Notes: a model not told the origin generated them from the letters alone. Shown: positions 20,207-63,625, numbered from the stretch's first letter. The stretch: DNA of 64,000 nucleotides from Candidatus Saccharimonadota bacterium (GCA_017556795.1 JAFYLZ010000004.1:248001-312000); one strand, 5' to 3'. Made by a program: numbers and translations.

Positions 20207-21160
20207 TTAAAACTCCTTCAAGAAATTAAGTTTGCCAGATTCGAAATAACGCACGTCTTTGAGTCCGTAGCGAAGCATCACCAAACGGTCGATGCCGCCG
20301 CCCCAAGCAAAGCCGTGATAGACGGTTGGGTCGATGCCGGCCATTTTGAGCACGTTCGGATGAATCATGCCACAGCCAAGCATTTCGATGAATTCGCCTT
20401 TTTTGCCACCAAGGGTTTTTGGTTTTTCGATCTTAAATTCGAGCGATGGTTCGGTGAACGGGAAGTAACCTGGTTGGGTGGAAATGTCGAGTTTTTGCTC
20501 GTAGTATTTTTCGAAGAACTCGCGCAAGATACCGAGCATGTTGCCAAGCGTACAATCTTTTGAAACGTAGACACCCTCGCACTGATAGAAAGTGTGTTCA
20601 TGGGTGGCGTCGACGTCTTCATTGCGGAAGACGCGGCCCGGGACCACGACGGCGATATTTTTGCCTTCTTCAAGATTCTTTTTGTAAGCTTTGAGCACGC
20701 GGTGTTGCATGGTAGAAGTATGGGCCGGTGGAATGTACCCCTCTTCGGTACGGAAAGTATCGTAACCGTCACGGGCTGGGTGACCCTTCGAGAAATTCAA
20801 ACTGTCAAACATATGAAACTCGTCGTCGAGCTGGCGTGGTTCTACTACATCGAAGCCCATCATTTGATAGATTTCGATGACGCGGTCTAGCTCGGTCATC
20901 AACGGATGTTTGGAACCCTGTTCGGATGGCAAAAATGCCGGCATCTTTTGGTTTGGTGCGGTAGGCGCAGTAATATCAAGAGGCTCGACTTCCGACTCGA
21001 GTGCAGCAGCCTCGGCCTCGGCGATAGCTTTCATGAGAGCGGTCTTTTTGGCGTTCATCTCGCGACCAAATTCGGCGCGCTTTTCCGCTGGGATAGTTTT
21101 GATTTTGGCATATTCGGCGTTTAAAGCCTTTAGTTCAGATTTTAATTTCTCGAGTTCCAT
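20207..21160 (-). CDS. pheS: phenylalanyl-tRNA synthetase alpha subunit
   Basis: At 317 aa it is a class II catalytic subunit. An N-terminal coiled coil (1-60) is followed by motif 1 around GSKHPLMTELDRVIEIYQMM, motif 2 with GRVFRNEDVDATHEHTFYQ and motif 3 with GFAWGGGIDRLVMLRYG. The coiled coil is shorter than in E. coli PheS. It heads the pheST operon from a leaderless promoter (TGTTATAAT, 6 nt to ATG). Confidence 0.97.
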   Translation of the reverse strand: MELEKLKSELKALNAEYAKIKTIPAEKRAEFGREMNAKKTALMKAIAEAEAAALESEVEPLDITAPTAPNQKMPAFLPSEQGSKHPLMTELDRVIEIYQMMGFDVVEPRQLDDEFHMFDSLNFSKGHPARDGYDTFRTEEGYIPPAHTSTMQHRVLKAYKKNLEEGKNIAVVVPGRVFRNEDVDATHEHTFYQCEGVYVSKDCTLGNMLGILREFFEKYYEQKLDISTQPGYFPFTEPSLEFKIEKPKTLGGKKGEFIEMLGCGMIHPNVLKMAGIDPTVYHGFAWGGGIDRLVMLRYGLKDVRYFESGKLNFLKEF

Positions 21161-49310: not shown

Positions 49311-49312
49311 TT

Positions 49313-49627
49313 TTACAACTCCGTATATTTTTTGCTACTACCTTTAGATTTGTCGACTGGATATTTCTTAGAGTTTTCCTCCAATTTTTCCATAATGATA
49401 TCTTCGAGTTTGACATCAAGTTTATCCGCCAAAAGAATCGCATAGTTCACAACGTCGGCCAATTCTTTACAAACGGCCTTTTTATCGTAATTATCGTTCC
49501 ACTGGAAGCATTCAAGAAGCTCGCCCGACTCAATAGCGATTGATTTTGCCAAATTCGCAGGAGAATGAAACTGATCCCAGTCTCGGTCTTTTGTGAATTT
49601 TATTACTGCGGATTTGACCTCGTCCAT
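49313..49627 (-). CDS. MazG-like nucleotide pyrophosphohydrolase
   Basis: The 104-aa all-alpha domain has AIESGELLECFQWND (E33, E36, E39) and CKELADVVNYAILLADKL (E55, D58), the metal-binding pattern of MazG/dCTPase-type enzymes that hydrolyse NTPs or dNTPs to monophosphates. The start at 49627 lies 6 nt after TGCTATAAT (leaderless). As the first gene of the unit with the GIY-YIG helicase it may deplete or sanitise nucleotides; that role is inference. Confidence 0.88.
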   Translation of the reverse strand: MDEVKSAVIKFTKDRDWDQFHSPANLAKSIAIESGELLECFQWNDNYDKKAVCKELADVVNYAILLADKLDVKLEDIIMEKLEENSKKYPVDKSKGSSKKYTEL

Positions 49628-49633
49628 ACTAAT

Positions 49634-49639
49634 ATTATA
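49634..49639 (-). promoter_or_regulatory. -10 box of the MazG-GIY-YIG-KAP unit (leaderless)
   Basis: TGC-TATAAT, then ATTAGT (6 nt) and ATG at 49627. Confidence 0.8.
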
Positions 49640-49658
49640 GCATGGTACCAGCATTGAA

Positions 49659-51347
49659 CTATCGCTTATGTTCGGCTGCTCTTTTCCCGGCACAATATGG
49701 GCAACCTCTGCCTTTGCTCCTATTGGAGATGCTAGCTTCCCATTCGTGGCCTTTTTCACATTTCCACCAAACCTTCTTATTACTACTCGCGGTGAAATCT
49801 TTTGGCCTTAAAATACCATTCTTTTCGTAATTCCATTCATTTGCCAACCCTGGGTTAAGCGTGGCTAAATCATTGAAACCATGGAGAACTTTTTTGCCAG
49901 CACAATATGGGCATCCGTTGCCATTATTTCTGTCCACGACACACGCTTCCCACTCATGCCCTTTTTTGCATTTCCACCATACTTTCTTGCCACTACCAGC
50001 CGTAACATCTTGTGGCTTAAGATCACCATTCTTTTTATAATCCCATTCGCTTGCAAGTTGAGGATTCTTAGTGCTTAGGTCGTTAAATCCCCGCTCAATC
50101 TTACGGCTGCTACAATATGGGCACCCGGTGTGATGACTCGTTCTATTGTTGGGAGTCGCCCGATAGCTATGTCCGTTTTTGCATTTCCACCAAACTATAA
50201 CCCTTGCGCCGGCAGAAATATTTTCAGGCGTATTGCCAACCTGTCCATTCTTTTGATAATCCCATTCATCTAAGAGCTCTGGGTTTGTTTTTGCGATATA
50301 GTTTTCCAAGTCGTAGTTTATGACCATGCTCCTGATTTTGTCGTAGTCCCTGGGCATATCAATCCCTAAGTTTACGCCAAGTTGCTCCTCCAAAAACTTT
50401 AATCCAGGAATTATGTGCTCGCCGCTAGTTTTAGGGCTCTCTGGCAGCGTAAACACGATAGATTTTAATGCTGTGTCATCTAGGCCTTTTTCTCTTATGC
50501 GGATGATCGTAATTCCGTGCTCACTACAGAGCCTATCTTTTATGGCGTCTTTTGCTTTGTTTTTATGATAAAAAACTCCGTCATATTCAATTCCGGTTTT
50601 TTTACTTGGAATATAAATGTCTAGTTCTTTTCTGCCCAACCATGCAGGCTTATAATTCTCGACCGCGTCCGGAAAGGCTTGCTGAATATAAAAGAATATC
50701 GCTTTTTCCGGGAAAGAAATGCGTAGATTATGCGAACATACGGGACACCCTCTACCTATGGCCCGTTTGCAAATGCTAGCCTCCCATTCATGTCCATTCT
50801 TACATCTCCACCATACCTTTTTATTGCTATTCAACGTGAAGTCTTGTGGCAATAACCCGGCGTTCTTTTCATAATTCCATTCATTAGATAGCTGGGGGTC
50901 AAGCGTAGCTAGATCATTAAAGCCAGGAAGAACCATTCTGCCTGCGCAATACGGACAGCCATTGCCACTATTCCTGTTCGAGATTTGGGCTTCCCATTCA
51001 TGCCCTTTTTCGCATCTCCACCATACTTTTTTACTACTACTCACGGTGAAATCTTTCGGTTTTAGTGTATCGTTCTTTTCGTAATTCCATTCGTTTGCCA
51101 GCTCAGGATTAAGCGTAGCTAAATCATTAAAGCCAGGAAGAACCATTCTGCCCGCACAATACGGACAACCAGTCCCCTTGGCTCTATTGCAGATGCTAGC
51201 CTCCCATTCGTGCCCCTTTTTGCATTTCCACCAGACCTTCTTGCCGCTTCCGCAAGTAACATTATCAAAATAAAACCCGTTTTTATCATTACGTTCGCGA
51301 TACCATTCTTTAGTCAGTTCCGGATGTTCGTCTTTGAGCAGACCCAT
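49659..51347 (-). CDS. nuclease flanked by six zinc-ribbon repeats (3 + 3)
   Basis: At 562 aa. Six copies of a unit of about 65 residues are seen, with KKVWWKCKKGHEWEA...GCPYCAG (C-x3-GHxW-x-CPYC, DUF4379/probable zinc-ribbon type) preceded by PELANEWNYEKN. Three lie before and three after a central domain of about 130 residues. That domain has FPEKAIFFYIQQAFPD, LGRKELDIYIPSKKTGIEYD and GITIIRIREKG, a Vsr/PD-(D/E)XK-like nuclease core. The repeats probably bind DNA. The repeated DNA coding for them is visible. The -10 TATAAT lies 12 nt before the ATG. Confidence 0.82.
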   Translation of the reverse strand: MGLLKDEHPELTKEWYRERNDKNGFYFDNVTCGSGKKVWWKCKKGHEWEASICNRAKGTGCPYCAGRMVLPGFNDLATLNPELANEWNYEKNDTLKPKDFTVSSSKKVWWRCEKGHEWEAQISNRNSGNGCPYCAGRMVLPGFNDLATLDPQLSNEWNYEKNAGLLPQDFTLNSNKKVWWRCKNGHEWEASICKRAIGRGCPVCSHNLRISFPEKAIFFYIQQAFPDAVENYKPAWLGRKELDIYIPSKKTGIEYDGVFYHKNKAKDAIKDRLCSEHGITIIRIREKGLDDTALKSIVFTLPESPKTSGEHIIPGLKFLEEQLGVNLGIDMPRDYDKIRSMVINYDLENYIAKTNPELLDEWDYQKNGQVGNTPENISAGARVIVWWKCKNGHSYRATPNNRTSHHTGCPYCSSRKIERGFNDLSTKNPQLASEWDYKKNGDLKPQDVTAGSGKKVWWKCKKGHEWEACVVDRNNGNGCPYCAGKKVLHGFNDLATLNPGLANEWNYEKNGILRPKDFTASSNKKVWWKCEKGHEWEASISNRSKGRGCPYCAGKRAAEHKR

Positions 51348-51482
51348 ATATCATATTTATTATAACATTGGCCAGCCAGTCAAAAAAACAAAATAATACA
51401 CAAAATCAATTAGGGCAGTCAGTAGCTTACGCCGCCATGACACGAACAGATGCTGTGGCCAGTAGCCGAACTGCACTAACCG
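51348..51482. other. 135-bp gap with no gene
   Basis: Apart from the promoter of the zinc-ribbon nuclease gene (TGTTATAAT on the minus strand), I see no ORF and no clear terminator. The stretch TGGCCAGTAGCC-like and CGTTACTGTCGCC sequences do not form an obvious hairpin. Confidence 0.5.
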
Positions 51483-52157
51483 TTACTGTCGCCATAATCG
51501 GTGCTTACTTTCAATGATTTTTCTCGCCTCAACAAAAAGTCGTTCTACGGAATACCGCTCGCAATCGATACAAAAATACCTGTTACCCTTCAGGTCGAAT
51601 TCGTACAAACTGCCACCAAGATAATACAAAAATACAGAGTCAAACCCAGTTTCATATTTACTTACTATTTCGGTACTAAGGCGGAGGATTTCCGCTAGGT
51701 CTCTGCTAAAAATATGAACATAGCTAAATATAAATAAAAAATTTTTGTCAAAAATTTTATAGTTTTTGTTTAGTTTTTTCAATTTGTTTTCTAGCACAAC
51801 ATAGAGATCGTTCAAATTACGGTTTGTAGCCGGATGTACGAGAATTTGCTCTTCTATCTTACCCCCCAGCTTCCTGATTTGTTTGTACGCTTTTTGTCTT
51901 TGTTGGCTATCACCGTATGAATAATCTTCGGAGTACAGGTTAACCATCTCTCTAAAATACCGGGGACTAATGCTGGTGACTTCTACGCCCATTCCTTCGC
52001 CACACAAATCAGGCTTATCAACCCCAGCGACCAAACCGACAAAACGGTCTGGGAAAAATTTTTCAAGCATCAATTTGGCGGATATTTCCGAATATTCCGT
52101 TTCATAACATTTTGGCAGCGGTTTTTCCGGGTCAATTTTTTTATTTTTGTATCCCAT
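51483..52157 (-). CDS. orphan protein, 224 aa, possible PD-(D/E)XK-like fold
   Basis: Unrecognised. SAKLMLEKFFPDRFVGLVAG and DKPDLCGEGMGVEVTSISP resemble the start of a restriction-like nuclease core (Asp, then E-x-T), but the catalytic Lys is not evident. The middle is strikingly A/T- and Lys/Asn/Phe-rich (KLKKLNKNYKIFDKNFLFIF), unlike its neighbours, which suggests foreign origin. It starts 6 bp after the stop of the MBL hydrolase gene in the same direction, with no clear ribosome-binding site. Confidence 0.6.
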   Translation of the reverse strand: MGYKNKKIDPEKPLPKCYETEYSEISAKLMLEKFFPDRFVGLVAGVDKPDLCGEGMGVEVTSISPRYFREMVNLYSEDYSYGDSQQRQKAYKQIRKLGGKIEEQILVHPATNRNLNDLYVVLENKLKKLNKNYKIFDKNFLFIFSYVHIFSRDLAEILRLSTEIVSKYETGFDSVFLYYLGGSLYEFDLKGNRYFCIDCERYSVERLFVEARKIIESKHRLWRQ

Positions 52158-52724: not shown

Positions 52725-53420
52725 TTACCTCCTCATTTTTCTTAATAAATCTTTCATTTCTGGCTCCACACGGTACGAGTCGCATATCTTGGAAATGGCC
52801 TTATTGAACGTCCATTTCGGCAGATGCGACGCGCGAAGATACCCGAGCGTTGACTCCGGGAACTTGATAAAACATTCGCAAACCAGCCAAGCCAGCGCCA
52901 TTTTTACATAATATTCATCGCGCGCGGCCAGGCGCTCCGTCCAGTCGTAGGCCACCTGCAGCCAGTCCGGGTCCATGTAGCAACATTTTAAAATCACCAG
53001 CCCAACTCGTGCAGCAAACTCACGTTCGTCGCTAAGCAGATTCTCCATCTTCTTTTCATAAAAATCCGTGCGGCGCTTTTTGATTAGCTTCCCCACGGCC
53101 GAGCAAAAAGTATCGCAAGTACTCCAGTCGTCGAGTAAATCCACCTGGGAGTCGAAATAGTCCAGCATCTTTTCGTACGGCAGACGCGCAATCAAAAAGG
53201 CCCGCGCCAGAGTTTCTTCGTAGCCGATGGGTGTTTTTGTAATGATTTTCTCGATATATTCCGGCGCCACTTGGCCGGCGTTTTCACGAATCTGCGGCAC
53301 CCGCACCCCCAGAAACGGCCGCTCGCTCGGGCAGATTTTCATCACAAAATCCCGGTACTCGTCGTCCGCATAAAAAGCCAGCTTCTCGCACAGCTCCTGG
53401 TGGGTTTTGATCTGGTTCAT
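52725..53420 (-). CDS. AlkD-like DNA alkylation repair protein
   Basis: At 231 aa, it is a HEAT-like helical repeat protein of the AlkC/AlkD family, with RPFLGVRVPQIRENAG near the N-terminus and DDWSTCDTFCSAVGK (Trp and Asp of the DNA-contacting cleft). KCCYMDPDWLQ and WTFNKAISKICDSYRV follow. AlkD excises cationic alkylated bases. The start is backed by TGCTATAAT ending 6 nt before ATG. Confidence 0.82.
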   Translation of the reverse strand: MNQIKTHQELCEKLAFYADDEYRDFVMKICPSERPFLGVRVPQIRENAGQVAPEYIEKIITKTPIGYEETLARAFLIARLPYEKMLDYFDSQVDLLDDWSTCDTFCSAVGKLIKKRRTDFYEKKMENLLSDEREFAARVGLVILKCCYMDPDWLQVAYDWTERLAARDEYYVKMALAWLVCECFIKFPESTLGYLRASHLPKWTFNKAISKICDSYRVEPEMKDLLRKMRR

Positions 53421-53824: not shown

Positions 53825-54772
53825 TTAAACGCTCGCGCTTAGCACTTCCCTAGCCTCGGCCACGGAGTGCGTTTCCATCAACTTGGCGCGGAGGTCTGAG
53901 GCGCCCGGGAAATTATTGATATAAATCTTGTAGTAGTGTTTGAGTGGCTCGTACGGCAAGCCGTGCAGAGCCATTTGTTCCTCATACAAATCCAGGTGCA
54001 GGTTCAAAAGTTCCATTAGCTCTTCGCGCGTGGCGGCGTGGTCCGTAAAACAATACGGATTAGAAAAAACGCCGCGGCCGATCATAAAGCCATCGATTTC
54101 CGGATACTGAGCGTGCAATTCCAGCGCAGCCGCACGGTCCTTAATGTCGCCATTAATAATCAACTTAGTCTCTGGCGAAATCTCGGCGCGTATCTTCAAA
54201 ATCTCCGGAATTAGCTCGTAGTGCGCCGCCACCTTAGACATTTCCTTGCGGGTGCGCAGGTGCACGGTGAGGGCGGCCGGGTGCTCGGCGAGCAGGGTCG
54301 GGAGCCAAGTCTTATACTCATCAACGAACGAAAAGCCGAGGCGGGTCTTGATTGAGACCGGCAAGGAGGTCGCGGCCTTGACTTTGCGGTAGCAATCCAC
54401 GGCGAGCTCCGGGGTTTTGATCATCGCGGCGCCACCGCCGGCTTTGTTGACGTGTTTGTCTGGGCAGCCAAAGTTAAGGTCCACGCCAGCAAAGCCGAGC
54501 GATTCCAAGGCGCCGGAAAGTTCCGAAAAATGGTCCGGATTTTTGCCCCAAATTTGAGCAATAATCGGCTTGTCTGACTCGACAATCTCTAGGCGCTCCA
54601 ACGCGTTGTGGCGACCTTTCTCGGAGGCGTAGCTCGAAACGTTAGTAAATTCGGTATAAAAAAGATCTGGCCGGCCAGCCTTGGCAACGACCTGGCGGAA
54701 TGCCAAATCAGTGACGCCTTCCATCGGCGCCAAAATCAGAAACGGACGTGGTAGCTCTTGCCAAATATTCAT
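53825..54772 (-). CDS. dus: tRNA-dihydrouridine synthase
   Basis: At 315 aa, it is an FMN-dependent TIM-barrel Dus enzyme: LAPMEGVTDLAFRQVV at the start, the catalytic Cys in LNFGCPDKHVNKAGGGAAM, SIKTRLGFS, and NGDIKDRAAALELHAQYPEI with DGFMIGRG. It reduces uridines in tRNA D-loops. The subgroup is not assigned. The start at 54772 lies 6 nt after TGTTATAAT (leaderless); a longer frame upstream is rejected. Confidence 0.93.
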   Translation of the reverse strand: MNIWQELPRPFLILAPMEGVTDLAFRQVVAKAGRPDLFYTEFTNVSSYASEKGRHNALERLEIVESDKPIIAQIWGKNPDHFSELSGALESLGFAGVDLNFGCPDKHVNKAGGGAAMIKTPELAVDCYRKVKAATSLPVSIKTRLGFSFVDEYKTWLPTLLAEHPAALTVHLRTRKEMSKVAAHYELIPEILKIRAEISPETKLIINGDIKDRAAALELHAQYPEIDGFMIGRGVFSNPYCFTDHAATREELMELLNLHLDLYEEQMALHGLPYEPLKHYYKIYINNFPGASDLRAKLMETHSVAEAREVLSASV

Positions 54773-54778
54773 TTTTAT

Positions 54779-54866: not shown

Positions 54867-54876
54867 TAAATCTAGG

Positions 54877-55602
54877 TTAGGTTGTTGTTGATTCCGTTTC
54901 TTCGACTTTTGTAGCGAGCAGCAGTGATGACAAGAAGAAGATGTGAGCCATTCTTTGGCAGTACTGGGCATTGGGTAAACAATGTACGATGGTCAACATT
55001 GCCGCGTTGTAAAAATAGCAACCGCAGAAATCGTTGTCCAATATCCGCGCCGACATCGATGCTTCCTGATGCGAGTAGGACCATCCGTCGAGAAGACTAG
55101 ATGTTTCCAACTTGTAGGTATGCTTGTATGAGATGCCGTCAGCAGCTACACAGTAAAGATGTTTTAGCTCTTCGCTTTCGAGCAGCATGTATGGCATCAG
55201 TTCGTCTCGGTTGTCCTTGAGGACACGATTGAGAACGTTATAGCTCATCGTATTCAGGAGACTCACAATCAGCACTCTCTCTGAGAAATCTCGCCGATGC
55301 AAGCCGAAATACGGTAGCCCGTCTAGCCGGCTGGCGACGTCGTGGCTTATCGCCTTGTCGTAATAAGCGTTGACTGATTTTTCCGATCCGGCTTCAGTAA
55401 CCGCTGGATAAAATTTCAGCGTGTTACCTTCAAGGTCGCTAATCTGCCGTCCAGTTTTTCTGACATGAAGCTCTTCCAGCAGCTCCGGAGCATAGTCCCC
55501 TTTCATGTAGATGAACGCTTTCATGATGTCATCAATGAATTCTTCGCATTCTTCCTTGTCCAAACCAACTACGAATACTTTGACGTTTTTCCCGATTTTC
55601 AT
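54877..55602 (-). CDS. P-family orphan protein (P1), 241 aa
   Basis: This belongs to a local family of eight paralogues with no function I can name. Family features here are the N-terminal strand NVKVFVVGLDKEE, motif A SDLEGNTLKF (55-64), motif B FGLHRRDF followed by VLIVSLL (99-115), and a hydrophobic C-terminal helix HIFFLSSLLLATK. It is more Cys- and aromatic-rich near 190-225 than its paralogues. It overlaps P2 by ATGA, so the two are co-translated. Its stop lies in ACAACCTAACCT, the reverse complement of the unit's leader motif. Confidence 0.75.
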   Translation of the reverse strand: MKIGKNVKVFVVGLDKEECEEFIDDIMKAFIYMKGDYAPELLEELHVRKTGRQISDLEGNTLKFYPAVTEAGSEKSVNAYYDKAISHDVASRLDGLPYFGLHRRDFSERVLIVSLLNTMSYNVLNRVLKDNRDELMPYMLLESEELKHLYCVAADGISYKHTYKLETSSLLDGWSYSHQEASMSARILDNDFCGCYFYNAAMLTIVHCLPNAQYCQRMAHIFFLSSLLLATKVEETESTTT

Positions 55603-56321
55603 GCTCTAGCCCTCCTTGCTTTTGGCTCGACAGTAAACAGAGCCGTCGCGGTCGCCAGCAGTATGCCGAAAATTTCAAGCATAAAGTCTGGTTTGTTCTT
55701 CGACATGAATTCGAGGAAAACACCCTCTCTGTAGCCATTCAAGATAAACCATGCCAAATTAGACCATCTCCTGTACGGGCCAAAGGCATCTTCGTTTTCC
55801 GGGTCCAAACCATAATCCTCGCAGATTTTCTGGCCCAAGTCGAACGCCGGAAACATGATCGGAAGACAAAACATCGTGTGAAGTCTCTTGAAACTAGTAA
55901 TGCAGAATGGCTTGCAGCTCTTGTCGTCACGGTCCAAATAGTGGCCGATGATTTTATCGAACGCCTTGTCGACGTCCGGATCCGCAAAATCCTTCACGAT
56001 GAGTATCCTGGTGTCGAAATGCTCTTTCATTAAACCAAACTCATCGAGCAGGCGCCCATAGTCCACCACGTCGCCGCGCAACAAATTGAGCATCTCTTCA
56101 CCAGAGTAGTTACCGCAAAACTGCCTTTCGCGAATATGAATTTCGCTGCCCTCCGGTTCTTTGATTATTAGACAGCCATTCTCCTCGGCAATATTGAACC
56201 CCGAAATACCAGGAATCTCCTTGGTTGCAGCCATACAGAATGCGCTGTAGCAGTCTTCAATAACATCATAGTCCGCATCATAGTTGTCCCTCACAAAAAA
56301 TATTTTTACTACTTTCTTCAT
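55599..56321 (-). CDS. P-family orphan protein (P2), 240 aa
   Basis: A P-family paralogue with N-terminal VVKIFFVRDNYDADYD, motif A KEPEGSEIHI (54-63) and motif B FGLMKEHF followed by RILIVKDF (95-112). The C-terminal hydrophobic helix is FGILLATATALFTV. The order of beta-strand, acidic helix, hairpin, strand and helix suggests an alpha/beta fold with a C-terminal packing or membrane helix. It is the first gene of the P2-P1 unit, with a GGAGG-like site after an attenuator-type leader. Confidence 0.75.
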   Translation of the reverse strand: MKKVVKIFFVRDNYDADYDVIEDCYSAFCMAATKEIPGISGFNIAEENGCLIIKEPEGSEIHIRERQFCGNYSGEEMLNLLRGDVVDYGRLLDEFGLMKEHFDTRILIVKDFADPDVDKAFDKIIGHYLDRDDKSCKPFCITSFKRLHTMFCLPIMFPAFDLGQKICEDYGLDPENEDAFGPYRRWSNLAWFILNGYREGVFLEFMSKNKPDFMLEIFGILLATATALFTVEPKARRARA

Positions 56322-56408
56322 CCATAAATACCTCCGTTTTTCTAAAAAAATAAAAAACGGGAGCTTTTACCTAACCTCTTAACTTGCTCCCACTTGCCCT
56401 TAATTATA
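56322..56408 (-). promoter_or_regulatory. promoter and attenuator-like leader of the P2-P1 unit
   Basis: The -10 TGGTATAAT (56403-56408) starts a leader containing GTGGGAGCAAGTTAAGAGG and TTAGGT. GGGAGC (56386-56391 on the plus strand as GCTCCC) pairs perfectly with GCTCCC (56359-56364), followed by GTTTTTTATTTTTTT, an intrinsic-terminator shape ahead of the gene. The loop contains AGGTTAGGT, complementary over 9 nt to the sequence at the P1 stop (54874-54882). Confidence 0.75.
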
Positions 56409-56432
56409 CCATAAAACCCCTGAAAAGGCAAA

Positions 56433-56454
56433 GCCCCGCCATTGCTAGCGGGGC
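56433..56454 (-). terminator. terminator of the Q2-Q1 unit
   Basis: GCCCCGC-n8-GCGGGGC followed by TTT and a second T4; it lies 25 bp ahead of the P2 promoter. Confidence 0.85.
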
Positions 56455-56464
56455 TATGAAGCAG

Positions 56465-56887
56465 TTAATCGAGTGAAAACTTAAGACCGGGAATATTGGC
56501 CGAATCGATAATTCTTTTGAGGCTCTGAATATCGTCGTGGTTTTCTCCGTTGTATACCCTATCGAAATAAACTTCGCAGAAAACCTGGCCGTCTCGGACG
56601 AGCTCGGCTTTGATGCCGAACTGGCAGTCCCAGTGTTTAGTTGTCGACCAATTGATTTCGGCTTGAGACCAGTCAATCTTGTTTCCAATTAGGAAATACA
56701 TTTCTCGGCCGTCCTTAAACACGAGTCCAAACAGAGCGGTGACCTGATCGCGATCATCTATATACTTGACCTTGCGTTCGAGATGCGTCAGAAACGCCGC
56801 TTTAAGCCGTTCTATGATGAGTAGCAATTCTGCATCCAGAATTGTTTGCGAGCCGCTGCGTCCTTCTACGATATGAATCTTTTTCAT
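56465..56887 (-). CDS. Q-family orphan protein (Q1), 140 aa
   Basis: One of three local paralogues of 140-171 aa. The family mark is an N-terminal strand (KKIHIVEG), an amphipathic helix (LLIIERLKAAFLTHLE), then a beta-hairpin LFGLVFKDGREMYFLIGN at residues 52-69, followed by an acidic or aromatic stretch with a conserved Trp. Here the end is VYFDRVYNGENHDDIQSLKR. Unknown function, soluble, no signal. It follows Q2 by 9 bp with GGAGG in the gap. Confidence 0.72.
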   Translation of the reverse strand: MKKIHIVEGRSGSQTILDAELLLIIERLKAAFLTHLERKVKYIDDRDQVTALFGLVFKDGREMYFLIGNKIDWSQAEINWSTTKHWDCQFGIKAELVRDGQVFCEVYFDRVYNGENHDDIQSLKRIIDSANIPGLKFSLD

Positions 56888-56896
56888 GGCAACCTC

Positions 56897-57412
56897 CTAA
56901 AAAACGTGTGCAATTCTAGCGATCGGCTGTTCTTGCTCGGCAAGAGCGCGTTCGACTTCACGGATGACTTCTTCGGTCATCTCCATCGAATATTGCTCTG
57001 GATCACTGTGACAAACTGCTTCGAAATAACCTTTGAAGGCTTCTTCATTTATCATGATCTCGATACATTTGACGTATCTTCCGTAGATGCCATCGTCCGT
57101 TAAATCGGCAAAGTGCTGCTTTTGGGCGTGATCGAGCGTGTCTCTCCATGATTCTGCCGAATACTCGTAGACTCCGTTGCCAATAGCATACAATATCTCC
57201 TCGCCTTTGCCGAAGACAAAGCCGAATGAAACTTCAAAATCTTTGCCTTTGTCGCCAGAAACGGAATCGCCAAGATCGAGGAACGCATCCTTAAACATGG
57301 AAATCACCTTCAGGACCTTCATCTGGGTATCCAAATCCCCTGTCTGCTTAGCCGGGAATAATTGTCCCCGAAAATTACTCTTTACTACCTCTATCGTGTA
57401 AACTTTCCCCAT
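56897..57412 (-). CDS. Q-family orphan protein (Q2), 171 aa
   Basis: Q-family paralogue with GKVYTIEVVKSNF at the start, helix ISMFKDAFLDLGDSV and the hairpin FGFVFGKGEEILYAIGN at 63-79. It has a longer acidic C-terminus (TEEVIREVERALAEQEQP). It is first in the Q2-Q1 unit, with GAGGAGGTGAAAGT before ATG. Function unknown. Confidence 0.72.
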   Translation of the reverse strand: MGKVYTIEVVKSNFRGQLFPAKQTGDLDTQMKVLKVISMFKDAFLDLGDSVSGDKGKDFEVSFGFVFGKGEEILYAIGNGVYEYSAESWRDTLDHAQKQHFADLTDDGIYGRYVKCIEIMINEEAFKGYFEAVCHSDPEQYSMEMTEEVIREVERALAEQEQPIARIAHVF

Positions 57413-57484
57413 ACTTTCACCTCCTCGTAATGGGATTTGTACAAAAAACCGCCTCCTTCTTGCGGTGTTTCTGATTAAATTATA
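57413..57484 (-). promoter_or_regulatory. promoter and terminator-like leader hairpin of the Q2-Q1 unit
   Basis: The -10 TGTTATAAT (57479-57484) is followed by the hairpin ACCGC-n9-GCGGT and T6 (57442-57466), an intrinsic-terminator shape about 40 nt upstream of the Q2 ribosome-binding site. The hairpin loop carries AAGGAGG, itself a Shine-Dalgarno-like sequence. Confidence 0.65.
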
Positions 57485-57500
57485 ACATATTTCCTAGAAA

Positions 57501-57522
57501 AAGCCACCCCGTAGGGCGGCTT
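57501..57522 (-). terminator. terminator of the Q3 unit
   Basis: AAGCCGCCC-tac-GGGGTGGCTTTTT with one G-U pair; it directly precedes the Q2 promoter. Confidence 0.85.
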
Positions 57523-57528
57523 CAGGTG

Positions 57529-57996
57529 CTAGGGCGGGACGAGCGGCTTGTAGATAAGTTCAATGTTGCGATCTTTCAGGACGGGTTTAACGGATTCCTC
57601 CAGCGTATCCAGAACGATATCCATCGAACTACCTGTACCACTAACGAAAGCGCTAAGAAAAATCATATCACAAAGTTCTTCCCCTTTGCCGCCGACGACT
57701 CCGAAACGTTTGATAACGCCCTGTGCTTCGTTGTGTGGAATAAGCAAGAGCTGCCAACCGGTGGCCGACGAGTCGTCCGTGTCGTCATTGCCGACGGCAA
57801 CGGATATGTGCTTGTCTTCGCCGAAAACGAAGGCAAACGTCGCGGTAAAACCGATGCGGTCCCCCTCTTCTCTGCCGACCATAAAGTTCCCAAGATCAGT
57901 AAAAGCCTGGGTAACAATTTCCTTTACGAACAGCATGTCCGGATCGATAATCGCGTCCACATTTTTGCGCACTACAACTGAGTAAACATTTCCCAT
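57529..57996 (-). CDS. Q-family orphan protein (Q3), 155 aa
   Basis: Q-family paralogue with GNVYSVVVRKNVD, helix EIVTQAFTDLGNFM, the hairpin FAFVFGEDKHISVAVGN at 54-70 and a conserved Trp in SSATGWQLLLIP. The ATG at 57996 is chosen over an in-frame GTG at 58005 because GGAGGAGGTG overlaps the latter. It forms its own unit. The sequence at its TAG stop (GCCCTAGCAC) is complementary, with one bulged base, to its leader (GTGCTAAGGGC). Confidence 0.72.
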   Translation of the reverse strand: MGNVYSVVVRKNVDAIIDPDMLFVKEIVTQAFTDLGNFMVGREEGDRIGFTATFAFVFGEDKHISVAVGNDDTDDSSATGWQLLLIPHNEAQGVIKRFGVVGGKGEELCDMIFLSAFVSGTGSSMDIVLDTLEESVKPVLKDRNIELIYKPLVPP

Positions 57997-58074
57997 AAGC
58001 AGCACCTCCTCCGGTCTAGTGGGAAAATCTTGCTAAATGCTTCCCGATGCCCTTAGCACTTCCTCTGTATTATA
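57997..58074 (-). promoter_or_regulatory. promoter and leader of the Q3 unit
   Basis: The -10 TGCTATAAT (58069-58074) is followed by ACAGAGG and a hairpin TGCTAA-n16-TTAGCA, then a GGAGGAGGTG ribosome-binding site. GTGCTAAGGGC (plus-strand 58049-58059) pairs with the sequence around the Q3 stop at 57526-57535. Confidence 0.65.
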
Positions 58075-58083
58075 GCATAAAAA

Positions 58084-58101
58084 AGCCCCCTTGTGGGGGC
58101 T
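58084..58101 (-). terminator. terminator of the P3 unit
   Basis: AGCCCCC-acaa-GGGGGCT then T6. The T-run merges into the Q3 promoter (TTATGCTATAAT). Confidence 0.9.
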
Positions 58102-58119
58102 ACGGGGTATTTTTTTGGG

Positions 58120-58836
58120 TTAGATTTGCAACATGGTCGATGCTGCCTTAAAGATGAGACCGAGTTCGGTCATCTCCGTGCGCTCATCTTTCTCTAGTGC
58201 ACCGTTGAACGCCTGTGATAACAGCTGTTCTGCTGCGTGGCTAAAAGCACGCTCCTCTTCAGGCTTCTGTCCTCTGCGGTGACGATCTTCGATGTTATCT
58301 TTGATCTGATTTCTATACCGCACCTCGATCATAGCTTCAATGCGCGCTTGTGCGTAGTGATTGGCGAAGTAAGGGTCGCCCACCAGGTCGACCCCGTCCG
58401 TAAGGACGATGGCTGGCTCAAGGTAATGGGAATATGTCCTAATCGCTTCTTCTAGTTCGACGGCGGCGTGGCCATTGTCCATAGCTGCGCCGTTAATAAT
58501 GATCGTCTTTTCCCGGAAGTCTGGGTCGGGTGAAACGCCGAAGTTTTTCAAGACCTTCTCGTAGTATGCTACGGGAGATCTCGGCACGACGCCACTCATA
58601 ACGTCGTGGATCCTCGGTATGAGGCGCGCACTAAAGAAGACTTGGTCACCTCTCTCACTCGCAAACATCCGTGTAAAATCACGATCCTGGCCGGTTGGGC
58701 CATAAATTCTGTTAATGGGACTGTCACCAAACAGCTCCATTTTACGACATTTTTTAAAAATGTCGCATTTCGGGATGAGTTGGTCCTCGCCCCTTCCGTC
58801 CTTATACAAAAAAATCACATTTACTCTATTATTCAT
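58120..58836 (-). CDS. P-family orphan protein (P3), 238 aa
   Basis: The most divergent P paralogue. It has the N-terminal strand RVNVIFLYKDGRGE and a motif A equivalent RGDQVFFSARL (62-72, without the Gly-Asn pair). Motif B NFGVSPDPDF is followed by TIIINGAAM (98-119), and PAIVLTDGVDL and the C-terminal helix LGLIFKAASTML follow. A charged helix EDRHRRGQKPEEERAF replaces the linker of other members. It forms a single-gene unit. Its stop lies in AAATCTAACCC, matching its own leader's variant motif. Confidence 0.72.
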   Translation of the reverse strand: MNNRVNVIFLYKDGRGEDQLIPKCDIFKKCRKMELFGDSPINRIYGPTGQDRDFTRMFASERGDQVFFSARLIPRIHDVMSGVVPRSPVAYYEKVLKNFGVSPDPDFREKTIIINGAAMDNGHAAVELEEAIRTYSHYLEPAIVLTDGVDLVGDPYFANHYAQARIEAMIEVRYRNQIKDNIEDRHRRGQKPEEERAFSHAAEQLLSQAFNGALEKDERTEMTELGLIFKAASTMLQI

Positions 58837-58902
58837 AAAACATTCCTCCTAAAACTAAAGCGCAATCTAACCAAATTGTTAAAATACCATATTTATATTA
58901 TA
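58837..58902 (-). promoter_or_regulatory. promoter and leader of the P3 unit
   Basis: The -10 TGGTATAAT (58897-58902) precedes a leader with TTTTAACAATTTGGTTAGATT. GGTTAGATT (plus-strand AATCTAACC at 58864-58872) is the exact 9-nt reverse complement of the sequence at the P3 stop (58118-58126). This leader lacks the strong terminator hairpin of the P2 and P6 leaders. The ribosome-binding site is AGGAGG. Confidence 0.68.
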
Positions 58903-58920
58903 CCATAAACGCATTAAAAA

Positions 58921-58943
58921 GTCCACCCCTAAATAGGGTGGAC
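58921..58943 (-). terminator. terminator of the P6-P5-P4 unit
   Basis: GTCCACCC-n7-GGGTGGAC followed by T5 on the minus strand, just ahead of the P3 promoter. Confidence 0.92.
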
Positions 58944-58952
58944 TTAGTTTGG

Positions 58953-59603
58953 TTAGGATTTTTTGACTGCGGAGAAGAATATGGCAGAGACTCCCAGGAG
59001 TATCCCGAGCATTCGTCTACAGTGCTTCTTTCCGCGATAATTCAGAAGCTTTTTCGAAAGCGGCCAATACTCGGTATCAACGAGCCGCGCGTCCTTGATC
59101 CCGCATTCGCCCTGGACTAGCTCCAGGAAATCAGAGGTTCTGCGCGAGGCTTCTTCTAAGTCATCAATGACGAGATAGGGCTTCTTGGACATATAATGCT
59201 TCATCAAGATTTTGAGAAGCTTTGTCCCATTAGAGTCAAACAGTGCCGGAATAACTATCATGCCGTCGGCATCAAAATCTTGAGGCGAGAGCTCCAAGGC
59301 GTCTCGCGCTTCACCATAAGACAACGAGTCTTGTTTGGCCAAAATCTTCTCGACATAATACTCCCAGTTGTTGGGCGGCTGAGGGGCGACTACTTTGAAC
59401 GTAACTAAGTTTCCGTAATCATCATCGATGCATCCCACCGCGCCACCGCGAGTGTCTATCAACCGTGAGCTCAAAGACTTGAACGTCGTCTTTGTGGTTT
59501 GGATGAGTCTCTTCAGGATCTTGACCATTTCACGAATTTCTCCATCCGCCTCCATGGCATCTATGGGCTCAAATACGTAGACCACTTTTATCAGTTTTGC
59601 CAT
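58953..59603 (-). CDS. P-family orphan protein (P4), 216 aa
   Basis: P-family paralogue with KLIKVVYVFEPIDAMEAD, motif A DDDYGNLVTFKV (60-71), and motif B ELSPQDF followed by GMIVIPAL (104-121). KKPYLVIDDLEE and the C-terminal helix LGILLGVSAIFFSAV follow. The ATG at 59603 is chosen for its GGAGGGG site; a longer frame upstream runs inside P5 and is rejected. Last gene of the P6-P5-P4 unit; its TAA stop lies in ATCCTAACC. Confidence 0.75.
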   Translation of the reverse strand: MAKLIKVVYVFEPIDAMEADGEIREMVKILKRLIQTTKTTFKSLSSRLIDTRGGAVGCIDDDYGNLVTFKVVAPQPPNNWEYYVEKILAKQDSLSYGEARDALELSPQDFDADGMIVIPALFDSNGTKLLKILMKHYMSKKPYLVIDDLEEASRRTSDFLELVQGECGIKDARLVDTEYWPLSKKLLNYRGKKHCRRMLGILLGVSAIFFSAVKKS

Positions 59604-59616
59604 TGTCCACCCCTCC

Positions 59617-60285
59617 TCATGATTTCTTCTCGCAAGTGATGCTAAGCAGCGTGCTGACCGCTCTGAAGATCGGCGCAAGCTCGAGCTGCTCTGGCCTCCA
59701 GAGGTCACTGCCCCAAATAACTTTGGCGGCTTCCTCGAAGTCGAGACCTTCACTGCTGAGAATGTTGCCTTCATACTTACTCTTGTAAGTCAATTTCGGC
59801 TCACGACAGGCCTGATACAGTGCCAGATCGTTTTCGTCGTACCCGCCGAGCTCGTTCCTGTCGAGCAAGATGACTGGCACCGCGATTTGGGCGTATCTGA
59901 CAAGCCTCTTGAGGTTCTTGGCCGGAACCGTATCCTTACGATAAGAACAAATAAGGATCGTTTTCTGGTTGAAATCGGCTTTCTGCAAGCCGAATAGTTT
60001 GAAAACCTCAAAGAGATCAACGCCGCGTTCGCCGCAATTGTAACGATAGACAGCATCCAGAAGTTGCTTGTCTGGCTCATGCTCCATGACTGCTGTCAGG
60101 AACCTGATGGAGTTTCCGTCCGTATCAACGATAGTGGACTGCTCCTCGTCCAGGCAAAGATTCGGCAGCTTGAGTGCCTCTTTCACATTCTTGAAACCTT
60201 TGACGTACCGGTCCAGCTGTTTGTAGCACTCATCCTCGTCTGCCCATACCAAAATTACGTTTACTTGATCTTTCTTCTTGTTCAT
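59617..60285 (-). CDS. P-family orphan protein (P5), 222 aa
   Basis: P-family paralogue with QVNVILVWADEDECY, motif A VDTDGNSIRF (53-62), and motif B FGLQKADF followed by TILICSY (98-115). VPVILLDRNEL and the C-terminal helix IFRAVSTLLSITC follow. The middle includes GVDLFEVFKL. It sits 4 bp after P6 and 13 bp before P4. Function unknown. Confidence 0.75.
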   Translation of the reverse strand: MNKKKDQVNVILVWADEDECYKQLDRYVKGFKNVKEALKLPNLCLDEEQSTIVDTDGNSIRFLTAVMEHEPDKQLLDAVYRYNCGERGVDLFEVFKLFGLQKADFNQKTILICSYRKDTVPAKNLKRLVRYAQIAVPVILLDRNELGGYDENDLALYQACREPKLTYKSKYEGNILSSEGLDFEEAAKVIWGSDLWRPEQLELAPIFRAVSTLLSITCEKKS

Positions 60286-60289
60286 TTGT

Positions 60290-60943
60290 TCATCCCTCCT
60301 GTTCTACACCAAAGAATACTGCTGCGATGCTGAGATATCCGCCGAGAAGCCTCCTGAGACAATCGCCTTTGCCCTTCAGGAATCTCCGTGACAAACGCAG
60401 ATAGTCTTTATCGATCTGACCATTAGTAAGCTCATGCCTGTACTGAAGTCGCTCTGCGAGATCACAAAGGTCCCCGAGCTCGACGGAATTCAGAACAGCG
60501 TATGGGCTTTGCTTAGAAAAGTGCTTCGCTACGGCTTCCACCAGAATATCAGACTTCTCCCCCGACAAGCACGGAACAATAATCATGCTGGTCTGGGGGC
60601 CAAAATCCTCCTGGTCAAGGCCAAGATGACGAAGCGCGGAGATATAGGTAGTTGGATCTTGTAACTCTTTGATACCGGCAAGGCTGCTGTTTATGATGTG
60701 CGGCTTGCAACAAAGAGTACTGATCACTCGAAACCGGACTGTTCTGCCGTTCCCATTCGAAATGGTACCTACACATCTGCCGAATTTCGGAGACGACTTC
60801 ACTATGAAACCATCGAATGAGCTTGAGTGCTTAATGAATTTATCCATTATGCTAACTAGCTCAACGACTTCGTCATGTATCGCCTCAAAACTCTCGTCGT
60901 CTTTTTCGTCTACGATGTAGACAATGTCAACCGTTTTTTCCAT
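60290..60943 (-). CDS. P-family orphan protein (P6), 217 aa
   Basis: P-family paralogue with TVDIVYIVDEKDDESFE, motif A SNGNGRTVRF (62-71), and motif B LGLDQEDF followed by SMIIVPCL (107-126). SPYAVLNSVELGD and the C-terminal helix LGGYLSIAAVFFGV follow. It resembles P4 most closely (shared SKQSPY/SKKPY and LSRRFL/LSKKLL segments), suggesting the more recent duplication in the cluster. First gene of its unit. Confidence 0.75.
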   Translation of the reverse strand: MEKTVDIVYIVDEKDDESFEAIHDEVVELVSIMDKFIKHSSSFDGFIVKSSPKFGRCVGTISNGNGRTVRFRVISTLCCKPHIINSSLAGIKELQDPTTYISALRHLGLDQEDFGPQTSMIIVPCLSGEKSDILVEAVAKHFSKQSPYAVLNSVELGDLCDLAERLQYRHELTNGQIDKDYLRLSRRFLKGKGDCLRRLLGGYLSIAAVFFGVEQEG

Positions 60944-61036
60944 TGTTCATTCCTCCATTCATACGTAATCCAAAAATCAAAAAAAGTGTGGACAAATACC
61001 TAACCTGTTAATTTGCTCCCACCTCTGTATATTATA
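60944..61036 (-). promoter_or_regulatory. promoter and attenuator-like leader of the P6-P5-P4 unit
   Basis: The -10 TATAAT (61031-61036, TTATGATATAAT) starts a leader with ACAGAGGTGGGAGCAAATTA and ACAGGTTAGGTA. GTGG-gag-CAAA pairs with TTTG-t-CCAC, then T7, a terminator-like shape. The loop holds GGTTAGG (plus-strand CCTAACC at 60999-61005), complementary to the P4 stop region (58951-58957). AGGAGG-like ribosome-binding site before ATG 60943. Confidence 0.75.
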
Positions 61037-61046
61037 TCATAAAAAA

Positions 61047-61066
61047 GCCACTCTGGCAAGAGTGGC
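61047..61066 (-). terminator. terminator of the P8-P7 unit
   Basis: AGCCACTCT-tgcc-AGAGTGGCT then T6, flowing directly into the P6 -10 region (TTATGATATAAT). Confidence 0.92.
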
Positions 61067-61074
61067 TAAGTGGG

Positions 61075-61737
61075 TTAGGTCTCGGGAACCTCAAATGGGA
61101 GCTCGGGCTCCGGGTCAGCCATGATATACAGCGCGATGGCCGCTTCGTGCAAAATACGCGCAAGGGCGAGGCGTCTTCCGTCTATACTGTGAGTGAGCGC
61201 TTCGCTAGCTCGGTCGAAGTGATCTCCCGGGGTAGGGTCGCCAGAGGGCACTAGGCTATTTGCGTACAATGGATACCATCTGCGCAAATTGAATAGTCCG
61301 CTTACCGTATCAAAACATTGATAGGTTCCGGGCTGGCCGAATTGCCGCTTGCACCCGTTTAGGATAAACATGAGTGCCTCGTCATATCCGACACAGTCGC
61401 TGAATATGATCGTGCTGGTACTAAAATCCTCTTCGCGTAGAGCGAAAGCCGCGAGGTTGCGGTCGATAGAACGCCAAAGCCGCAGACCGCAACCATCTTC
61501 CATACCTGGAGATGGATCAGCGGTTCGGATTGAAAGCTCGATCTCGTTACCATCTATGTCGTAGATGCTACCAGTACCATCAACGTTCTGTGTTATCCTG
61601 CCGATTTCAGAAAATGCTTCCATATACCGGTCGCTGTTTTTTGCTTCGATTGCCTGTTCCATGATGGCGTTAAGCAGACCTCGTGGGCCAGCATTGTGCT
61701 CGCTCTCGCGGACGAAAATTACTTTGATCTTTGCCAT
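61075..61737 (-). CDS. P-family orphan protein (P7), 220 aa
   Basis: P-family paralogue with AKIKVIFVRESEHN, motif A YDIDGNEIELSI (59-70), and motif B FALREEDF followed by TIIFSDCVG (98-117). The C-terminal helix ILHEAAIALYIM is followed by an acidic Pro/Glu tail. The ATG at 61737 is chosen; an in-frame GTG at 61746 lies inside the GGGGGTG ribosome-binding site. It starts 5 bp after the P8 stop. The stop lies in GAGACCTAACCC. Confidence 0.75.
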   Translation of the reverse strand: MAKIKVIFVRESEHNAGPRGLLNAIMEQAIEAKNSDRYMEAFSEIGRITQNVDGTGSIYDIDGNEIELSIRTADPSPGMEDGCGLRLWRSIDRNLAAFALREEDFSTSTIIFSDCVGYDEALMFILNGCKRQFGQPGTYQCFDTVSGLFNLRRWYPLYANSLVPSGDPTPGDHFDRASEALTHSIDGRRLALARILHEAAIALYIMADPEPELPFEVPET

Positions 61738-61742
61738 GGTGT

Positions 61743-62417
61743 TCACCCCCTTTGCATTAAAACGGCAGCTACCGTAAACAGAACTCCGAGTGCGCGCAAG
61801 GTTTTGTTCTCGTCGCTACACAGCTTTTCTCCGGCACGATAAAATGCCTTGGTACTACAACCAACTTTGCACCTAAGTGCGGCCTCAAATAGCGGAGAAA
61901 ACGTCATTCGTCTGGCCCAGCCGTCGTCATCGGTAACACCCGGCCAGTCTTCCGGCTTAACAGCCAGACGCTCAAGATTATACAGTTCGAATGGTGCTGT
62001 TTCTATGGATTTTTTGTAGATATCCAGGACATATTTGAGCAGAGCTCTTTCCGACGGGCTACCCAGTAAGCAGTCAACGATGATGGTATCCTGATTGAGA
62101 TCGGCCTCTTCCAGACCTAATCCAGTAAGGATTCCCCAGTTGTTGACTATCTTGCCAGATACTATCTTTCCATAGTTATCCTTGACCTCAGGAGTGGCTT
62201 CTCTCGTCCTAAAAACAACTTCGTTACCATCAAAGTCAGAGATCGTCATTTCACCGTCACCAACGAAGGTTGGCGGACAGACTTTGTAAGACTCGTAAAA
62301 ATTAGTTTCGATGAGTTCAACAAGCCTAGTGTGCAAATCCTGCACAAATTTAAAAGCGGCTTTGTTGTGATCGTTGCTAATCAATAATACTTTCACCTGT
62401 TTCGTTTTATCATTCAC
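61743..62417 (-). CDS. P-family orphan protein (P8), 224 aa
   Basis: P-family paralogue with QVKVLLISNDHNK, motif A SDFDGNEVVF (60-69), and motif B LGLEEADL followed by TIIVDCLLG (100-119). APFELYNLERL and the C-terminal helix LGVLFTVAAVLM follow. It appears to start with GTG at 62417 (GGAGG 10 nt upstream); an ATG 4 nt downstream is out of frame. First gene of the P8-P7 unit, divergent from the R genes. Confidence 0.73.
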   Translation of the reverse strand: MNDKTKQVKVLLISNDHNKAAFKFVQDLHTRLVELIETNFYESYKVCPPTFVGDGEMTISDFDGNEVVFRTREATPEVKDNYGKIVSGKIVNNWGILTGLGLEEADLNQDTIIVDCLLGSPSERALLKYVLDIYKKSIETAPFELYNLERLAVKPEDWPGVTDDDGWARRMTFSPLFEAALRCKVGCSTKAFYRAGEKLCSDENKTLRALGVLFTVAAVLMQRG

Positions 62418-62496
62418 TATAAATACACCTCCAAAAACAAAAATTTCGATAACCTAACTCAAGCTATTAATCTGCTCCCACTTGGGGCAAATTATA
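62418..62496 (-). promoter_or_regulatory. promoter and leader of the P8-P7 unit
   Basis: The -10 TGTTATAAT (62491-62496) precedes a leader with GTGGGAGCAGATTAATAGC and GAGTTAGGT. The motif (plus-strand ACCTAACTC at 62452-62460) pairs with the P7 stop region (61072-61080) with one mismatch. CAAG/CTTG can close a stem just before the motif. A T-rich stretch and GGAGG follow. Confidence 0.68.
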
Positions 62497-62552: not shown

Positions 62553-62600
62553 TATAATTAGAGGATAAAGCTTTTCATAGATATGAGGGAGGTGACTATA
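62553..62600 (+). promoter_or_regulatory. promoter of the R1-R2 unit
   Basis: Plus-strand TGTGGTATAAT near 62553 and a leader ending in GGGAGGTGA before ATG 62601. It diverges from the P8 promoter about 60 bp away. Confidence 0.75.
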
Positions 62601-63080
62601 ATGGTTATTAGTCATGAAAAGTTCGTAGTGGCGGTTGGTGTCAAGAGACACGACTACGCCAAGCAGTTTGACAAAGAAGGAATCACCCCTGCGACGGACA
62701 CCATCGTTCTGTATGACAAAGAGCATGGTTATGTTGTAGTGGATGAGCGGGCCGCAGACGACGACTATCTCAAGTGGGCAGCTGTCCAAGAGGTAGCTTG
62801 TGGTAGCAGTAAAGAGGAATTTTGCGGATTAAAATTACCGCAGCCGGATGATCTGACGCGCCGCAAGGCGGTTGAGAAAATCATGCTGACGGTGGTTTTG
62901 CCGCAGAAGGACAAAGAGGCTTACGTAAGAAAACGCATCGAGGCGTATCTCGCCTTGATGGATTTGTGCCAGGACGACGTAAAGTCGTCGCTCGTAGATG
63001 CGTACGCTTTTTTGCAGTTATGGCTGATCAATCACACAGGAAAACATTTTCAATTGTACAAAGGAGGCAGGAATTTATGA
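62601..63080 (+). CDS. R-family orphan protein (R1), 159 aa
   Basis: One of two tandem paralogues of unknown function. Shared marks are TIVLYDKEHGYVVV (34-47), LKWAAVQEVACG, a C-terminal helical hairpin YVRKRIEAYLALMDLCQDDV and LQLWLINHTGKHFQLY. It is soluble with no signal. The ATG at 62601 is chosen for its GGGAGGTGA site. The stop overlaps the R2 start by ATGA. Confidence 0.72.
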   Translation: MVISHEKFVVAVGVKRHDYAKQFDKEGITPATDTIVLYDKEHGYVVVDERAADDDYLKWAAVQEVACGSSKEEFCGLKLPQPDDLTRRKAVEKIMLTVVLPQKDKEAYVRKRIEAYLALMDLCQDDVKSSLVDAYAFLQLWLINHTGKHFQLYKGGRNL

Positions 63081-63625
63081 GCAAGATTGAAGTAGGACCG
63101 AATTGGTTGAAGTTGAGAGATCTTAAAGTGAAGGTCGAGGCACAGTGGCTGGATTGCAATCGCAACGTAGGCGATGCAGTAATCTACGACAAGAAAAACG
63201 ACGCCGTCTTAGTCCATCCGTATGCGTTCGATGATGAGGGCGTATTCATGAGCGACGAATGCTCAATGTGGGCCGCCATCCATGCGGCCATCTGTTACGG
63301 CGGAGCTACGGAGTTTAGGCCCGGTTCGAGGTTCGAGCTTCGAAACCTTGCTGATCCGAAGGAAGGCAAAAAGCGCAGCCAATCAGTAGAGTATCTGCTG
63401 ATTCATCGCGAATTGCGTCCGGAAATCCGCGAAGAATACGCCAAGAGACGTATTAGGCAGTACGAGGCGCTCATCAAGCTCGGCGAGGAAAAAGTCGCGG
63501 AGTTCTTTGAGCTTTCAGAAGTGCCTAGGCCAGAGGATCTCATCCCCTCATTCGAGGAGAGCATCGACACTCTGAGGCTGTGGCAGCACTGCTATGTAAC
63601 TGGCAAATGGTGCCAGCTGCATTGA
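63077..63625 (+). CDS. R-family orphan protein (R2), 182 aa
   Basis: R-family paralogue aligning along its whole length with R1: DAVIYDKKNDAVLVH (33-47), MWAAIHAAICYGG, YAKRRIRQYEALIKLGEEKV and LRLWQHCYVTGKWCQLH. It carries an extra N-terminal 10 residues and an insertion (ELSEVPRPEDLIPSFEE). AAGGAGG lies 9 nt before the ATG. A longer frame upstream overlapping R1 is rejected. Confidence 0.72.
   Translation: MSKIEVGPNWLKLRDLKVKVEAQWLDCNRNVGDAVIYDKKNDAVLVHPYAFDDEGVFMSDECSMWAAIHAAICYGGATEFRPGSRFELRNLADPKEGKKRSQSVEYLLIHRELRPEIREEYAKRRIRQYEALIKLGEEKVAEFFELSEVPRPEDLIPSFEESIDTLRLWQHCYVTGKWCQLH

Follow-up and report, generated by a model that had tools for sequence, protein, structure and literature searches.

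A tandem array of probable Ras-like pseudo-GTPases, with a recurring 5' leader complementary to its own 3' ends, in a Candidatus Saccharimonadota bacterium

Two described systems lie closest to the locus reported here. CENP-M is presented as a protein related to small GTPases that does not bind GTP and serves as a fixed binding subunit of the human kinetochore (PMC4080450). The icaR mRNA of Staphylococcus aureus has a long 3' untranslated region (UTR) that pairs with its 5' UTR, and is called a singular example in its description (PMC3868564). The DNA analysed was a stretch of 64,000 nucleotides (nt) from a Candidatus Saccharimonadota bacterium (GCA_017556795.1, JAFYLZ010000004.1:248001-312000; the window), in which eight paralogous genes of one family, P1-P8, lie at positions 54877-62417. 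The best explanation, to which a probability of about 60% was assigned, is that a Ras-like (TRAFAC-type) small G-domain protein was expanded at one chromosomal slot, in operons that carry an end-pairing leader. The P genes are as follows:

54877..55602, minus strand: P1, 241 amino acids (aa), last gene of unit P2-P1
55599..56321, minus strand: P2, 240 aa, first gene of unit P2-P1
58120..58836, minus strand: P3, 238 aa, own unit
58953..59603, minus strand: P4, 216 aa, last gene of unit P6-P5-P4
59617..60285, minus strand: P5, 222 aa, unit P6-P5-P4
60290..60943, minus strand: P6, 217 aa, first gene of unit P6-P5-P4
61075..61737, minus strand: P7, 220 aa, last gene of unit P8-P7
61743..62417, minus strand: P8, 224 aa, first gene of unit P8-P7

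The start of P4 was placed at 59603 (216 aa), versus the start of a longer open reading frame that would give 273 aa. Transcript ends were deduced from promoter and terminator sequence: scanning for promoters and terminators, combined with inspection of the sequence, divided the region into six transcription units (P8-P7, P6-P5-P4, P3, Q3, Q2-Q1 and P2-P1, the Q genes belonging to a second family described below). Every unit has a TATAAT box, and most have a terminator hairpin. Four short operons (P8-P7, P6-P5-P4, P3 and P2-P1) hold the P genes.

An initial sequence-only reading of this DNA had proposed that the eight proteins are mutually related, and leave-one-out profiles bore this out: each protein was recovered by a profile of the other seven, with E values between 4.5e-14 and 5.5e-5, and 2,000 shuffled control sequences gave E 0.048 to 0.85 at best. 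Single BLAST pairs ranged from 2e-19 (P4/P6) down to no match. The proposal of an unnamed family with old and divergent duplications agrees with the pairwise identity of 12-28% and with the database searches, in which P1-P8 gave no match above noise against Pfam, NCBIfam, PHROGs, PADLOC or PDB sequences, and P8 none against genome, viral and phage collections. The family profile, run against the 674-kb genome, found exactly P1-P8, all within the window. Other details were refined: the genes do form a tandem same-strand set, with Q1-Q3 interposed between P2 and P3, so that the eight are not all adjacent; the spacing from motif A to motif B, given earlier as 36-44 residues, holds in all eight at 38-44 when measured start to start; and motif A (D-x-DGN-x-V-x-F) is present in looser form than described, its G being the sole residue invariant in P1-P8.

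Relatives were sought in other genomes. The first P profile gave no convincing relatives in 197 kin genomes and 380 phylum genomes; the phylum searches ran with this weaker profile, and its negatives count for little because one genome that carries an array (G063) was among the 197 kin and was missed. The G063 array was reached through a homologue of R, a gene beside the P array, and comprises four tandem genes, S1-S4, in the slot between the ABC-transporter/R genes and dus that P1-P8 also occupy. With P and S treated as one family, leave-one-out profiles recovered S4 at 1e-13, S3 at 3e-9, S2 at 1e-4 and S1 at 0.005. The twelve-member profile found all four G063 copies and nothing convincing in the remaining genomes of the genus (128 searched in all). 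A third species (G795) was found by the leader pattern described below and has a single copy in the same slot, T1, 66% identical to S4; in related genomes the family was found as four copies in G063 and one copy in G795. No P gene was detected around dus in eighteen further genus genomes, where the usual neighbours of dus are prfB, murD, M16 and secA. The family tree is too deep to tell which duplications are common to the species. The best explanation, at the probability given above, treats the P family as a lineage-specific expansion at one chromosomal slot, from the ABC-transporter/R gene to dus.

For fold assessment, P8 and P6 were modelled with AlphaFold from the eight window sequences alone, giving a predicted local distance difference test (pLDDT) of 78.6 and a predicted template modelling score (pTM) of 0.81 for P8, and pLDDT 84.6 and pTM 0.86 for P6. 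In VIA, the P8 model returned MglA first (Z 8.1, 138 residues, 3.7 A), with all top six rows being MglA (Z 8.1 to 7.3); the P6 model also returned MglA first (Z 6.4, 135 residues, 3.6 A), and 50/50 of its rows were small GTPases or other G domains. The pseudo-GTPase CENP-M was among the Foldseek rows of P6, and a viral fold library gave no convincing match. On this reading of the models, motif A would form the beta2/beta3 turn and motif B would lead into beta4. The hydrophobic C-terminus noticed earlier is indeed present; in the predicted fold it is the closing helix and not an added tail. P1-P8 thus probably retain a Ras-like scaffold (beta1-alpha1-beta2/beta3-alpha2-beta4-alpha3-beta5-alpha4-alpha5, with beta6 missing), and the P family is probably not a new fold.

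The fold Z values alone are unconvincing, and independent support came from S4 (L081:10402-11052), which has a complete Walker A loop, GKTNSGKT, right after beta1. S4 matched MMR_HSR1 of Pfam (E 2.7e-4; the curated cut-off was reached in the genome search) and FeoB_N (E 9.9e-5 over residues 5-123, below the FeoB_N cut-off); no match to either was obtained for P1-P8 or S1-S3. The T1 loop, GKKNSGKE, is a damaged Walker A, and the pattern GxxxxGK[ST] is absent from P1-P8 and S1-S3. Because this loop is absent, the models are read as those of Ras-like pseudo-GTPases, a probable assignment, and P1-P8 are probably unable to bind GTP in the usual manner. The earlier statement that the family has no tie to a named domain stands for the sequences of P1-P8, and gives way where the two Ras-like models and the MMR_HSR1 match of S4 are concerned.

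Several results weigh against the Ras-like assignment. VIA Z values of 6 to 8 are in the range typical of models without a clear match, Foldseek with the P8 and P6 models gave nothing at E <= 0.001, and the PDB holds a disproportionate number of GTPases. The G3 (DxxG) and G4 (NKxD) motifs were unrecognisable in the 13-member alignment, S4 included. In hhalign, all 13 members scored 12.2 against G domains of the same genus (Der, Obg-like and others), with shuffles reaching up to 13.9; a subset of S3, S4 and T1 scored 22.7 (shuffles 16.1), via the P-loop stretch alone. S1 owes its membership to an E value of 0.005 together with its position and leader. The assignment stays at probable because the profile-profile comparison with GTPases was negative. 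This negative comparison, the background-range Z values of both models and the missing G3 and G4 motifs would all be expected if the P proteins were an independent alpha/beta family that shares a common arrangement with Ras by chance, the P-loop of S4 being late or accidental. That account is possible and somewhat doubtful, since two paralogues folded separately both gave MglA first, the S4 P-loop sits exactly after the first strand within a FeoB_N match spanning residues 5-123, and the DGN-x-V-x-F turn appears to occupy the position of the Ras beta2/beta3 hairpin.

The Ras-like scaffold could also still serve working switches or sensors that bind nucleotide or another ligand by a remodelled loop. 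Some P proteins keep x-x-E-L at the G4 position, namely N/D/E-x-x-E-L at the end of beta5 in P6, P5 and P1, where NKxD would fall if the positions are equivalent. Such working switches or sensors are unlikely, given that the loop after beta1 has no conserved residue and that the whole window family has one invariant glycine. Under the pseudo-GTPase reading, and by analogy with CENP-M, the P proteins would act as fixed protein-binding scaffolds diversified towards different partners. The conflict, surface-interaction or sensor roles suggested in the initial reading are possible.

A shared regulatory leader of the P operons, overlooked in the sequence-only reading, was located directly after the TATAAT boxes. 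The 5' leaders and their candidate 3' partners are:

62453..62481, minus strand: 5' leader of the P8 unit, GTGGGAGCAGATTAATAGCTTGAGTTAGG
60998..61022, minus strand: 5' leader of the P6 unit, GTGGGAGCAAATTAACAGGTTAGGT, with a hairpin and T-run after it
58862..58890, minus strand: 5' leader of P3, diverged, ATGGTATTTTAACAATTTGGTTAGATTGC
56369..56393, minus strand: 5' leader of the P2 unit, GTGGGAGCAAGTTAAGAGGTTAGGT, with GCTCCC and a T-run after it
61072..61080, minus strand: 3' partner at the P7 stop, ACCTAACCC
58951..58957, minus strand: 3' partner at the P4 stop, CCTAACC
58118..58129, minus strand: 3' partner at the P3 stop, GCAAATCTAACC
54874..54882, minus strand: 3' partner at the P1 stop, ACCTAACCT

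The P8, P6 and P2 units carry the same element, GTGGGAGCANNTTAANAG..GTTAGG (RNA form GUGGGAGCA..GGUUAGG), of which the whole genome has three copies, all at these units, with a chance expectation of none in the window. Its conservation is far above that of the P proteins, and S1-S4 and T1 all bear it. No Rfam entry was matched at gathering score, and the exact pattern had no match in genome-contig and viral-contig collections. The GGUUAGG of the leader has its complement, usually CCUAACC, around the stop codon of the final gene in its own unit, just upstream of the terminator; operon-internal gene ends lack the complementary element. Pairing lengths were 9 bp for P2-P1, 9+2 for P3, 10 for S3, 11 for S4 and 8+6 for S1. 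For eight units combined, pairing exceeded that with shuffled ends (Fisher 3e-7; 0.45 for 49 other window genes in the same test), and own ends paired better than swapped ones (permutation 0.013, or 0.0075 with the flanks alone). The difference between own and swapped ends was not significant when contiguous pairs were counted more strictly (0.13). The P6 and P8 leaders tell the other way, pairing modestly with their own ends (shuffle p 0.13 and 0.09). Pairing of each 3' end with the following unit's leader was also considered and rejected: it fitted worse than the own leader in P3, S1 and Q3, and not in S4.

These complementarities suggest that the leader would base-pair with its own transcript's 3' end and, by analogy with icaR (PMC3868564), that the paired ends may control decay or translation of the full-length mRNA. 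The P2, P6, S1 and S3 leaders can fold a hairpin followed by U residues, an attenuator-like structure that may attenuate transcription in addition. Since the P2, P6, P8, S1, S2, S3 and S4 leaders all read GTG/ATG-GGA-GNA-...-stop, and leaderless starts 6 nt past TATAAT are common in this genome, the leader might instead be a leaderless micro-open reading frame (M-G-A-x-stop) whose translation controls the operon. This is decidedly improbable: variants elsewhere in the genus start with CTG (L156, L177), a further leader, with GGGGAG, lacks a start codon, and the stop codon was imposed by the search pattern.

The end-pairing leader extends beyond the P family. The pattern TATAATN{5,12}TGGGAGNANNTTRA gave 35 matches in 30 of 174 same-genus genomes, and its reversal none in the same 174. 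The downstream genes encode HD-domain, NUDIX and radical-SAM proteins (by Pfam), probable pgsA and PhoH-like products (identified by eye), and unknowns. A complement of the own leader is present at most 3' ends of these units, and both sides covary between units (GTGGGAG/CTCCCAC, ATGGGAG/CTCCCAT, CTGGGAG/CTCCCAG), the longest stem being 12 bp (L181). For 22 genus-wide units, leader and own 3' end were associated (Fisher 5e-12, permutation 5e-5; 0.93 for 46 leadered control units in the same test), counts that are not fully independent because some units are homologous to one another. Many of the 3' ends match the Shine-Dalgarno region of their own unit as well (permutation 0/20,000; the control was weakly positive, 0.026), and competition between the two pairings is possible because these ends match both. 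The loci of the class are L151-L183 (for example L152, L159, L167, L168, L177 and L181). In another genome of the genus (G028), locus L085 has a leader variant, AGAGGGGAGTACATTAAAAGGAGG, with the 3' end CCCTCCCC, which suggests that the paired-end class extends past the TGGGAG pattern.

Segments that bracket each unit, in an array that varies between species, might be DNA-level inverted repeats of a mobile cassette or DNA invertase. This was judged very unlikely, because the pairs covary from unit to unit with bulges and G-U pairs, lie at predicted transcript ends, and also flank the probable pgsA, a core gene. If the end-pairing leader is instead taken as an RNA element, a tentative and rather doubtful extension is that the genus uses a class of mRNA closed end to end (5'-terminal leader and matching 3' segment), as a check that would leave incomplete transcripts unstable or untranslated. 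Here this control would cover a diversified set of pseudo-GTPases descended from Ras, whose changing binding partners could include host or phage proteins.

The neighbouring genes of the array are:

56465..57996, minus strand: Q1, Q2 and Q3 (140, 171 and 155 aa), paralogues of a second orphan family, within the P array
62583..63625, plus strand: R1 and R2, a related pair divergent from P8

The Q genes are mutually related (E 8e-6 to 2e-3), are not found by the P profile, and gave weak partial matches only in the 197 kin genomes; the Q3 leader, GTGCTAAGGG, is complementary to its own 3' end, CCCTAGCAC (57526-57534). An R homologue adjoins the P genes in all three P-bearing species (with R homologues at L081:7301-7765 and L082:7932-8369). 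The R family is also present, as a single copy each, in nine further genomes of the genus; several of these copies have HECICCG-like motifs, which R1 and R2 have lost. Near the array, 45943-52157 is a low-G+C stretch (about 37-42%) encoding a KAP NTPase, a GIY-YIG/Schlafen-group-3 helicase, a MazG-like protein, a zinc-ribbon-like repeat protein and an unknown, and looks like an imported defence-type island adjoining the array. Separately, the genes at 16840-17787, 20207-21160, 52725-53420 and 53828-54775 start about 6 nt past TATAAT and, judged from sequence, probably have leaderless mRNAs.

If the pseudo-GTPase reading is true, multiplication of a G-domain protein with loss of its nucleotide site would be an uncommon way to build up a set of binding proteins. 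The leader element has wider scope than the P array, and its mechanism is directly testable because the pairing recurs with matching changes on both sides. Post-transcriptional control is little known in this group of ultra-small bacteria with tiny genomes.

Compared with known systems, the P models resemble MglA and the Rab/Arf/Ras small GTPases in strand and helix order up to beta5 and in the long final helix, whereas P1-P8 differ from them in having no Walker A, DxxG, NKxD, beta6 or sequence-profile similarity; among S1-S4 and P1-P8, S4 alone matches the MMR_HSR1 and FeoB_N G domains of Pfam. CENP-M, as described, has the pseudo-GTPase character that is probable for the P proteins and is among the P6 Foldseek rows; it is unlike them in being a human kinetochore protein with no sequence relation shown, where P forms a bacterial multi-copy array. 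As in the icaR description (PMC3868564), many 3' ends here match their own Shine-Dalgarno region. Pairing between the two ends of one mRNA is known in single cases such as icaR; what differs here is that the leader recurs on many genes unrelated to each other within one genus, that the 3' segments are short and pair at the 5' end of the transcript, and that both sides change together.
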